NCBI GenBank assembly: GCA_013003425.1
Contig: JABDJB010000081.1
Location: forward strand, 1-47,786
Source of the DNA: Gammaproteobacteria bacterium
GTDB lineage: Bacteria; Pseudomonadota; Gammaproteobacteria; Steroidobacterales; JABDKV01
Reading direction: 5' to 3'
DNA: 47,786 nt
Shown here: piece by piece, positions 30,418 through 32,544 of the stretch
How the letters are laid out: the number at the start of each line of letters is the position of its first letter
How positions within the stretch are numbered: the first letter of the stretch is position 1
Made by a program: the position numbers and the translations under genes
The notes under the pieces: generated by a model
Told to the model about the DNA's origin: nothing
The model's database searches: none
Seen by the model: only the letters and a program-made list of their open reading frames with translations

Positions 30418-31860
30418 TCAGATCCCGAACAGGTGGCTGATGCGGCGCGCAAGGTGCAGCGCCCGCGAGCGGAAGTCCTCACTCTCCTCTGTCACTTCAT
30501 TGCTGTCATTGCTGTGTTCGTTCAGATACTGGCGGCGTGCCATGATCTGGCCAAGCTCTTCGGCAATTGCGGGACGCGCCCGTAGTATGGGTTCGAGGTC
30601 TTCGCGCCTGATCTCAAGTACATAAACATCCGTGATCGCGCGCACTGTCGCAACGCGCGGTGAGCCTGTCAGCAACGACATTTCGCCGAAAGCCTGCCCC
30701 GGCTGGATCTTTCCGACCGAGCCATCCTTGCCATCCTCGTTGCGGGTAAAGACCTCCAGCACGCCTTCGACCAGCACATACAGACTGCTGCCGATGTCGT
30801 CCTGACGCACCACATCGCGGCCGGTGTCGTACTCCTTGGCAACTGCCACGGCAGCAAGTTGTTCCAGCTCGTCGTCGGTGAGCATCTCCAGCCAGCTGAC
30901 TCGTGAAAGCAGGCGGCGCGCATTGATGCGCCGTTCCTTACGCGGCTTGCGCTCGCGCGTGAGAACAATTTCGTGTTGCGCGTACGGGATGGAGATACCT
31001 GCCTGGCTGATAAATTCCAGCACGTTGGCAGCCAGCCGGTGACGCAGCCTGACCTTGTCAGTGTAGTCATTGACCCAGAACCGTATCTGGTAGACCACGC
31101 CGCGCTCCTGGAAACCGGTAATCCTCACGTCGTGGCGCTGTGTTGCCAGGCCCTCGGTCGCGTGAATTGCCGCAAGCAGGATGTTTTCAATACGCGCGGG
31201 GTCGGTCGTGTAGTTGAGCACCAGCTCGAGTGATTCGCGGTAATAGCGTTCCGGCCGGCTGATATTGGCAAACTGCCGTACGGCAAGGTTGTTATTGGGT
31301 ACTACAACAGTCTTGCGCGACTGCGTAATGAGTCGCGTTGCGCGCCAGTTCATTTCAGTTACGCGAGCGACCACGCCATCGAGTTCCAGCCAGTCACCAA
31401 TCCGGTAGGGCTGTTCGATGTTCATTGCGAGGCCGGAGAAAAAGTCGGCGATCATGTCGCGTATTGCAAAGCCGATAATCACGGTGACTATGCCGGAAGT
31501 TGCCAGCAGTCCACCTACCGGGCGTTCAAAGACGAACTTGATGATGCAGAAAACTGTCGCGACGAACAGCGTGGCCGATACGACGTTTGAAAGAATACTC
31601 GGGGCTGGCGCGCCAGTGCGACTGCGGATAACCGGGTTGAGCACCAGGGTGTCGATGGCTCGTCCGGCAAGCCAGGCGCCGCTGAGCCATAGCGCCACGC
31701 CGACAAAGCGGGTAGCGAACAGATCGCTGTCAGGCAGCAGCTGGCTGAACAGGCTGGCTACCAGGCTGGCCTGGCTGTGCACAAAGGCGAGCAACAGGAA
31801 CGCAATCAGGGGCGCTCCCAGCGACGTTATGCGGCTGCTGTTTATCGAGTCTTCTTTCAT
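30418..31860 (-). CDS. MscS-type mechanosensitive channel with cyclic-nucleotide-binding domain
   Basis: A 480-residue inner-membrane protein. TM helices are at about 15-35, 50-70 and 90-112; the pore helix follows (VGGLLATSGIVTVIIGFAIRD, 115-135) with the MscS beta domain (IGDWLELDGVVARVTEMNWR; VVVPNNNLAVRQFANIS) and alpha/beta domain to about 305. A C-terminal cNMP-binding domain (about 320-435) keeps the phosphate-binding cassette FGEMSLLTGSPRVATV (391-406) with Arg402. Such fusions are known as bacterial cyclic-nucleotide-gated MscS homologues, in which ligand rather than tension gates the pore. ATG 31860 is chosen; an upstream in-frame TTG (31869) is less likely. A CRP-type site lies about 90 bp upstream. 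Confidence 0.93.
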   Translation of the reverse strand: MKEDSINSSRITSLGAPLIAFLLLAFVHSQASLVASLFSQLLPDSDLFATRFVGVALWLSGAWLAGRAIDTLVLNPVIRSRTGAPAPSILSNVVSATLFVATVFCIIKFVFERPVGGLLATSGIVTVIIGFAIRDMIADFFSGLAMNIEQPYRIGDWLELDGVVARVTEMNWRATRLITQSRKTVVVPNNNLAVRQFANISRPERYYRESLELVLNYTTDPARIENILLAAIHATEGLATQRHDVRITGFQERGVVYQIRFWVNDYTDKVRLRHRLAANVLEFISQAGISIPYAQHEIVLTRERKPRKERRINARRLLSRVSWLEMLTDDELEQLAAVAVAKEYDTGRDVVRQDDIGSSLYVLVEGVLEVFTRNEDGKDGSVGKIQPGQAFGEMSLLTGSPRVATVRAITDVYVLEIRREDLEPILRARPAIAEELGQIMARRQYLNEHSNDSNEVTEESEDFRSRALHLARRISHLFGI

Positions 31861-31945
31861 CAATTTCAATCACAGAAGACCTATTTGTCATAACAAGAGG
31901 ACGTGGAATTCTGCTTATGAAAAGTGTCGCAGTAACGGCAATTTG

Positions 31946-31969
31946 CTTCTGTGAATGTGTTCACAGAAG
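31946..31969. promoter_or_regulatory. Perfect CRP/Vfr-type binding site
   Basis: Perfect inverted repeat with 10-bp arms CTTCTGTGAA and TTCACAGAAG and 4 central bases, containing the full consensus TGTGA-N6-TCACA (31950-31965). It is centred at 31957.5, about 97 bases upstream of the MscS-cNMP channel ATG on the minus strand and about 42-46 bases upstream of the candidate small RNA start on the plus strand. A further half-site TCACAGAAG lies at 31870-31878. Binding by a CRP-family protein is inferred from the match. Confidence 0.7.
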
Positions 31970-31999
31970 GCAATGGCGCTTTTGTCGGAAGATACTCGG

Positions 32000-32072
32000 G
32001 CCCTCCTCAATTGGTTGGTATCTCTCCCCCGAGATGTCACCACGGCCGGTCTTTGATCGGCCGTTTTTTTTT
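32000..32072 (+). ncRNA. Candidate CRP-controlled small RNA with C-rich loop
   Basis: No plus-strand gene lies upstream, yet a strong plus-strand terminator ends at 32072. A -10-like GATACT (31991-31996) would start an RNA of about 70 bases near 32000-32003. Its 5' part reads CCCTCCTC, an anti-Shine-Dalgarno sequence. Hairpin 1 (about 32013-32041) has the stem ATCTC/GAGAT, extended by weaker pairs, and the loop TCCCCC. Hairpin 2 is the terminator with nine U. C-rich loops that pair with ribosome-binding sites are known from Xanthomonas sX13 and staphylococcal RNAs. The exact 5' end is a guess. Confidence 0.4.
32042..32072 (+). terminator. Strong Rho-independent terminator on the plus strand
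   Basis: Stem ACGGCCG (32042-32048) with CGGCCGT (32058-32064), a 9-base loop, and nine T (32064-32072). On the minus strand the hairpin is preceded by A residues and followed by GGTGACA, so it is not a good terminator for the minus-strand gene ending at 32071. It must serve a plus-strand transcript starting in the 31870-32040 gap. Confidence 0.8.
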
Positions 32073-32544
32073 ACTTTTGTAACACCTTGCGATCGCGCTT
32101 GTCCGGGCCGGTTGCGGCATCTGCCGGCTGCCAGGCCGAAAAGGCTGCAATAGCCGCCGCTGTGATCAGCAGCAAGGCGCCGATCGGCACCAATACTATT
32201 GCCAGCGATGGGTCCGTTTCGGGATTCCCGATACCGCCAAGAAAGAATCCGGCCGGCATGAGTACCGCTGCTGTTCGCAGCGCTGCCGAAGCCCGGTGTG
32301 CTGCAGTGGCCGTCAGCTGCGAACCGTATAGCCCGAATACAACATTGACCAGGCCAAGCAATGTTCCATGGGCGTGCGCGAGGGTCCAAAGCTCACGACG
32401 AATCTGCGCCTCCATGTACAGTGGCAACTTGACCAGGTGCAGGCTTTCCAGCAGCAACCCGAGACAGGCAAAAACCAGCACGGCGGCCCAGCCAAAGCGC
32501 AGGCACTTACGGGCAGGTGAAGTTTCCGTCAAGTTACTCTCCAA
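32071..32544 (-). CDS. Small integral membrane protein in cytochrome operon
   Basis: A 157-residue protein with four predicted membrane helices (about 18-36, 56-75, 88-106 and 113-136). Conserved-looking polar positions occur in the second helix region (ELWTLAHAHGTLLGLVN), where two His residues in AHAHG could face a heme or quinone; this is inference. The 5' end overlaps the octaheme cytochrome gene by 11 bp, so the two are coupled. Family not recognised. Confidence 0.72.
   Translation of the reverse strand: MESNLTETSPARKCLRFGWAAVLVFACLGLLLESLHLVKLPLYMEAQIRRELWTLAHAHGTLLGLVNVVFGLYGSQLTATAAHRASAALRTAAVLMPAGFFLGGIGNPETDPSLAIVLVPIGALLLITAAAIAAFSAWQPADAATGPDKRDRKVLQK

Follow-up and report, generated by a model that had tools for sequence, protein, structure and literature searches.

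What transcript ends at a plus-directed intrinsic terminator that has no plus-strand gene before it? The question is raised by ~210 bp without a plausible plus-strand gene in the 47.8 kb of DNA analysed here (the window), flanked by a minus-strand mscS gene (30418-31860) and by another minus-strand gene, for a small unknown protein, whose stop codon lies at 32071. Within these ~210 bp are a 24-nt palindrome, two adjacent hairpins and the terminator with its nine T. A first-pass annotation had described the terminator, its U tail and the lack of a preceding plus-strand gene, and had proposed an independent small RNA gene; the former are confirmed in the sequence (32042-32072), and the latter is supported by conservation in relatives. 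Very probably this is a separate small RNA (sRNA) gene, switched on by the cAMP sensor CRP, in an uncultured gammaproteobacterium. As to its function, 32000-32072 (+) probably encodes a trans-acting anti-Shine-Dalgarno (anti-SD) sRNA, activated by CRP at a weak class II promoter and probably held by Hfq, with a 5' end that would block translation initiation.

It is comparison with relatives that turns a guess into a well-supported gene. Among 59 related genomes searched at the DNA level, the region was recovered from G002 and G003, two species of the same genus, and from G004, a member of a sister genus in the same family. The operator-RNA unit lies upstream of mscS in all three of the other family members that keep the channel gene (two genera). 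The family's fifth genome, G001, has neither the RNA nor the channel gene, and its assembly is 70% complete. In the four genomes that have the unit, 24 of the 25 bases of 32000-32024 (GCCCTCCTCAATTGGYTGGTATCTC) are invariant, compared with 20/162 fourfold-degenerate sites in mscS (12%), and this implies strong selection on RNA and operator. The intervening stretches have few invariant columns: 4/18 in 31970-31987, 3/13 in 31933-31945 and 0/19 in 31895-31913. The right-hand neighbour in G003 is a different gene while the RNA still adjoins the channel gene, which means that the RNA is neither the leader nor the 3' UTR of the right-hand gene.

The fold of 32001-32073 has an energy of -27.5 kcal/mol (z = -5.05), and no shuffled sequence folds equally well. 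RNA positions 1-12 are unpaired with a probability of at least 0.79 in all four folds, followed by hairpin 1 and then the terminator hairpin, ACGGCCGGTC-TTT-GATCGGCCGT at 32042-32064, with T continuing to 32072. Both hairpins are kept in the four genomes, 96% of the pair cells being standard, and all four RNAs have a U8-9 tail. Three stem pairs, one in hairpin 1 and two in the terminator, are changed on both sides, and none is when the partners are slid; 24 of 500 pair shuffles reach the observed covariation score, so that with only four sequences this support is modest. Two plus-strand ORFs span the region (31418-31954 and 31917-32153) but are mechanical only: the length of the hairpin-1 loop (6, 5, 3 and 8 nt) does not vary in steps of three. 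The locus thus has what an sRNA gene would be expected to have: a predicted promoter of its own and an intrinsic terminator, no conserved ORF, and a conserved unpaired region and structure.

Table 1. Features of the sRNA locus and its divergent neighbour (window coordinates)
Feature	Position	Strand	Evidence
MscS-family channel with C-terminal cyclic-nucleotide-binding domain	30418..31860	-	Pfam PF00924 and PF00027; adjoins the RNA in 4/4 genomes
Second block of conservation before mscS; TTTGTCATAAC on +	31884..31894	-	11/11 invariant; variable distance to block 31914-31932
Conserved block, candidate mscS promoter	31914..31932	-	17/19 invariant; fixed distance from palindrome; promoter role putative
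CRP-type operator CTTCTGTGAA-TGTG-TTCACAGAAG	31946..31969	.	Between mscS and sRNA gene; 22/24 columns invariant in four genomes
Probable -10 element GAAGAT	31988..31993	+	GAnnAT in 4/4 genomes; 4/6 invariant
Predicted transcription start, invariant G	32000	+	Spacing to -10 and to CRP centre
Small RNA gene, ~73 nt	32000..32072	+	Covariance model scores of 83-94 bits in four family members; z -5.05 for 32001-32073
Unpaired 5' end GCCCUCCUCAAUUG, probable anti-SD seed	32000..32013	+	14/14 invariant
Hairpin 1, stem conserved	32013..32041	+	95% of cells paired; one compensatory pair with changes on both sides
Intrinsic terminator hairpin and nine-T tract	32042..32072	+	Among relatives, both partners differ in two pairs

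The palindrome before the RNA has a core, TGTGAATGTGTTCACA at 31950-31965, that is the sole perfect TGTGA-N6-TCACA in the window, compared with ~0.05 expected from base frequencies; with one mismatch allowed there are five against 1.25 expected. Both 10-nt arms of the 24-nt near-perfect palindrome around it, CTTCTGTGAA-N4-TTCACAGAAG, are identical in the four aligned genomes. Counted from the predicted start at G32000, the operator centre is at -41.5 in the three relatives and one base off, at -42.5, in the window. The first-pass annotation was thus correct in seeing a perfect CRP-type site at a class II-like position. Promoters activated by CRP commonly carry their TGTGA-N6-TCACA 41.5 bp before the start (PMC10328515), and the spacing to the predicted start here is that of a CRP class II promoter. 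The likely activator of such a promoter is also encoded in the genome: a CRP ortholog (C11:21123) scores 322 bits against the NF008732 equivalog (cut-off 266), and its recognition helix, GCSREMAGRVLK, is almost unchanged from the GCSRETVGRILK of E. coli CRP. A CRP-like paralog (G000:C56:99928-100131), with 238 bits to NF008732 and so under the 266 cut-off, has the same SRE recognition helix and might be a competitor for this operator. In Yersinia it is established that CRP controls many sRNAs (PMC4376681). CRP is predicted to activate the sRNA promoter in the window.

The promoter itself is weak. A promoter scan found no sigma-70 hexamer pair and no -35 hexamer at the sRNA promoter, as expected for an activator-dependent promoter, and the -10 element is a poor one that reads GAAGAT, GAACAT, GAAGAT and GATTAT across the four genomes. 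Between this GAnnAT and the invariant G32000 lie six variable bases. The -10 had previously been placed at GATACT, a sequence that is present at 31991-31996 yet is not conserved, whereas GAnnAT at 31988-31993 is. GATACT aligns with CATGAC, GATGTG and TATGAT in the relatives; as a -10 it would move CRP to -44.5 or beyond, and it was rejected. GAAGAT is the more likely -10 on this alignment, which places the earlier -10 and start 3 bases too far downstream.

Could the CRP site serve only the divergent channel gene, with the small RNA made from a constitutive promoter or one controlled by another factor? G008, G022 and G035, which belong to another family of the order, encode channel orthologs (54-56% identity), and each of these cyclic-nucleotide-binding MscS genes is preceded by a perfect TGTGA-N6-TCACA (L118, L119, L120), with no CCTCCT motif or terminator found there. 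In G035, a TTGACG-N17-TATAAC promoter stands at class I spacing upstream of the channel gene. The window's family likewise has a conserved block at a fixed distance from the operator on the mscS side (31914-31932), in which a GACACT is at class II spacing from the sRNA's operator; the second block, TTTGTCATAAC, is possibly a second mscS promoter or a leader element. Against a channel-only site, operator and RNA start keep a spacing of -41.5 in three genomes despite diverging bases between, and no -35 hexamer was found for the sRNA; both genes may use the operator. We consider exclusive service to the channel unlikely; the operator in the window may act in both directions, on the sRNA and on mscS. 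As the second family has the CRP site without the RNA, the link between operator and channel may predate the RNA or be independent of it. It is a tentative possibility, which we do not favour strongly, that a single operator here places a cyclic-nucleotide-gated channel and an anti-SD sRNA back to back, the sRNA having been added to an older CRP-channel arrangement in one family. If true, cAMP would control channel gating, channel transcription and a programme of translational repression from one site. The family with CRP site and channel but without the RNA offers a before-and-after comparison of the gain of an sRNA gene at an existing CRP site.

For the sRNA as a CRP-activated regulator, we propose the following course of events. 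When cAMP rises, cAMP-CRP would occupy the palindrome at 31946-31969 and recruit RNA polymerase in class II fashion to a weak promoter with -10 GAAGAT and its start at G32000. Transcription would end at the U-rich terminator, and the RNA would probably be held by Hfq; Hfq is present in G001-G006, but a search of the window's draft genome did not find it. The 5' end of the RNA, unpaired and invariant (GCCCUCCUCAAUUGG), would pair with purine-rich ribosome-binding sites (GAGGAGG, best after CCAAUU) and block translation initiation there; this conserved stretch is complementary to the extended ribosome-binding site CCAAUUGAGGAGGGC. Hairpin 1 would be a spacer or stability element with a loop that has no pairing role. 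On its other side, the operator may drive the divergent gene for the cyclic-nucleotide-binding channel as well. At high cAMP, translation initiation on mRNAs that have GAGGAG-type sites is predicted to be blocked, probably with the help of Hfq.

A conserved 5' end of this kind might instead make the RNA a general SD decoy or competitor, an anti-SD mimic, or a binder of protein. Its CCCUCCUC resembles the 16S anti-SD core CCUCC, pairing is predicted to be good with several strong SDs, those of rpmA and groEL for example, and there is weak, below-threshold similarity to the Betaproteobacteria toxic sRNA (16 bits, gathering score 50) and to other C-rich sRNAs. Conservation, however, does not stop at the SD-like core but continues into AAUUGGYUGG, a hint at more specific pairing, and no family match indicates a protein ligand; a decoy or protein binder is accordingly improbable. 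Specific pairing as a trans-acting repressor has so far yielded target leads only: a lipoprotein gene in G004 (12-bp match) and, for G000, rpmA, groEL and a gene with a fasciclin domain, all biased towards genes with strong SDs. In the three or four genomes searched with strict seeds of 7-9 nt, no gene with ATTGAGGAG or TTGAGGA before its ATG was shared between genomes.

The first-pass annotation had also anticipated a translation block by SD pairing, and that likely role stands. It had, however, made the exposed loop of hairpin 1, TCCCCC, the active part, as in sX13 of Xanthomonas, and had mentioned GCCCUCCUCAAUUG, now the conserved pairing region, only in passing. TCCCCC is indeed exposed in the window's own fold, and the C-rich loops of sX13 repress G-rich mRNAs (PMC3771888). 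In the relatives that keep the flanking gene the hairpin is conserved but its loop is not: none of the six positions of 32025-32030 is invariant, the counterparts being CTGAT, ATA and CCAACTAA, so that loop sequence and length differ in every relative while the 5' end is invariant. The C-rich loop was rejected as the active site, and action through it is very unlikely. No more credible is the absence of any separate RNA, with a leftover terminator or an antisense of the flanking genes in its place: the terminator does abut the stop codon of the opposite-strand gene, but there is no T tract on the minus side, operator and 5' end are extremely conserved, and the RNA is retained in G003 beside a different right-hand gene.

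How widely is this RNA distributed? Searched over 396 genomes of the order, a covariance model scores the four family members at 83-94 bits and everything else at 35 bits or less, mostly through terminator similarity; no match exceeds 36 bits outside the four. When 84,980 species genomes were scanned for the pattern of CRP palindrome plus CCTCCTCA, 14 matches emerged. Three are known family members (JAHEKH010000067, JAOTXU010000021 and JABDKV010000246), metagenome-assembled genomes all titled Gammaproteobacteria bacterium. The other eleven look unrelated, less clearly so for two Crenobacter loci. Within the genomes sampled, the RNA thus appears confined to one family. In the window every Rfam family stays below its gathering score; among the closest are suhB/mmgR (RF00519; 21 bits, gathering score 41) and the Betaproteobacteria toxic sRNA (RF02278; 16 against 50).

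Several other loci were noted in the course of these searches. In the two Crenobacter species (L074:1985-2048, L083:338-401), TGTGA-N6-TCACA is followed ~45 bases later by CCGCCCTCCTCATCAGGAAC, perhaps as part of an RNA or of a leader, and in an uncultured proteobacterium (L078:3405-3460, minus strand) a TGTGA-N6-TCACA palindrome is followed by repeated hairpin-like units of GCGCCTCCTC/GCGCCTCCCCC. A conserved C-rich candidate RNA, with ACCTGGCAAGACCCCCCA..., GCCCCCTCCAGG and a strong terminator of T7-8, occurs in three genomes of another family (L053, L060 and L062, ~1420-1555, in G020, G005 and G033). L052:1501-1564 (G176) has a hairpin with loop TCCCCCCC and a terminator directly after, resembling the sRNAs with C-rich loops, and L041 and L043 (~1495-1560; G069, G155) have a CACGCCC-TCCTGA-CGGGCGTG hairpin and a terminator, possibly an RNA that displays CCUCCU.

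CRP-activated sRNAs that block SD sequences are best known from enterobacteria. An unrelated family of such sRNAs probably occurs in an uncultured gammaproteobacterial lineage too, with a predicted promoter and seed that are precise and testable. Among known RNAs, the present one would work most like CyaR (RyeE) of the enterobacteria, which has a CRP-dependent promoter, an intrinsic terminator and a conserved region that pairs with SD sequences, and which targets that of ompX in an Hfq-dependent manner (PMC11795201). It is not a CyaR member and is unrelated to it: the seed of CyaR is internal and its 5' end variable (PMC11795201), whereas here the very 5' terminus is the conserved seed; neighbours and lineage are different; and the CyaR Rfam model finds no match even at an E of 10. 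NfeR1 / alpha-r14 of rhizobia share the C/U-rich anti-SD motif in unpaired RNA, and their CCUCCUCCC motifs silence translation initiation regions (PMC10746234). They differ in having three hairpins with three identical motifs, where there is a single motif in a linear 5' end here, and in their regulators, LsrB and NtrC. The sX13 RNA is likewise a C-rich RNA with a terminator from a gammaproteobacterium, but it acts via its C-rich loops 2 and 3, has a dispensable 5' region and is Hfq-independent (PMC3771888), whereas here it is the 5' end that is conserved and not the loop. The likeness to suhB/mmgR and the Betaproteobacteria toxic sRNA is below threshold, lies in the U-rich terminator and C-rich stretches, and does not make this RNA a member of either. 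The RNA family itself is undescribed; its kind is already known from other bacteria.
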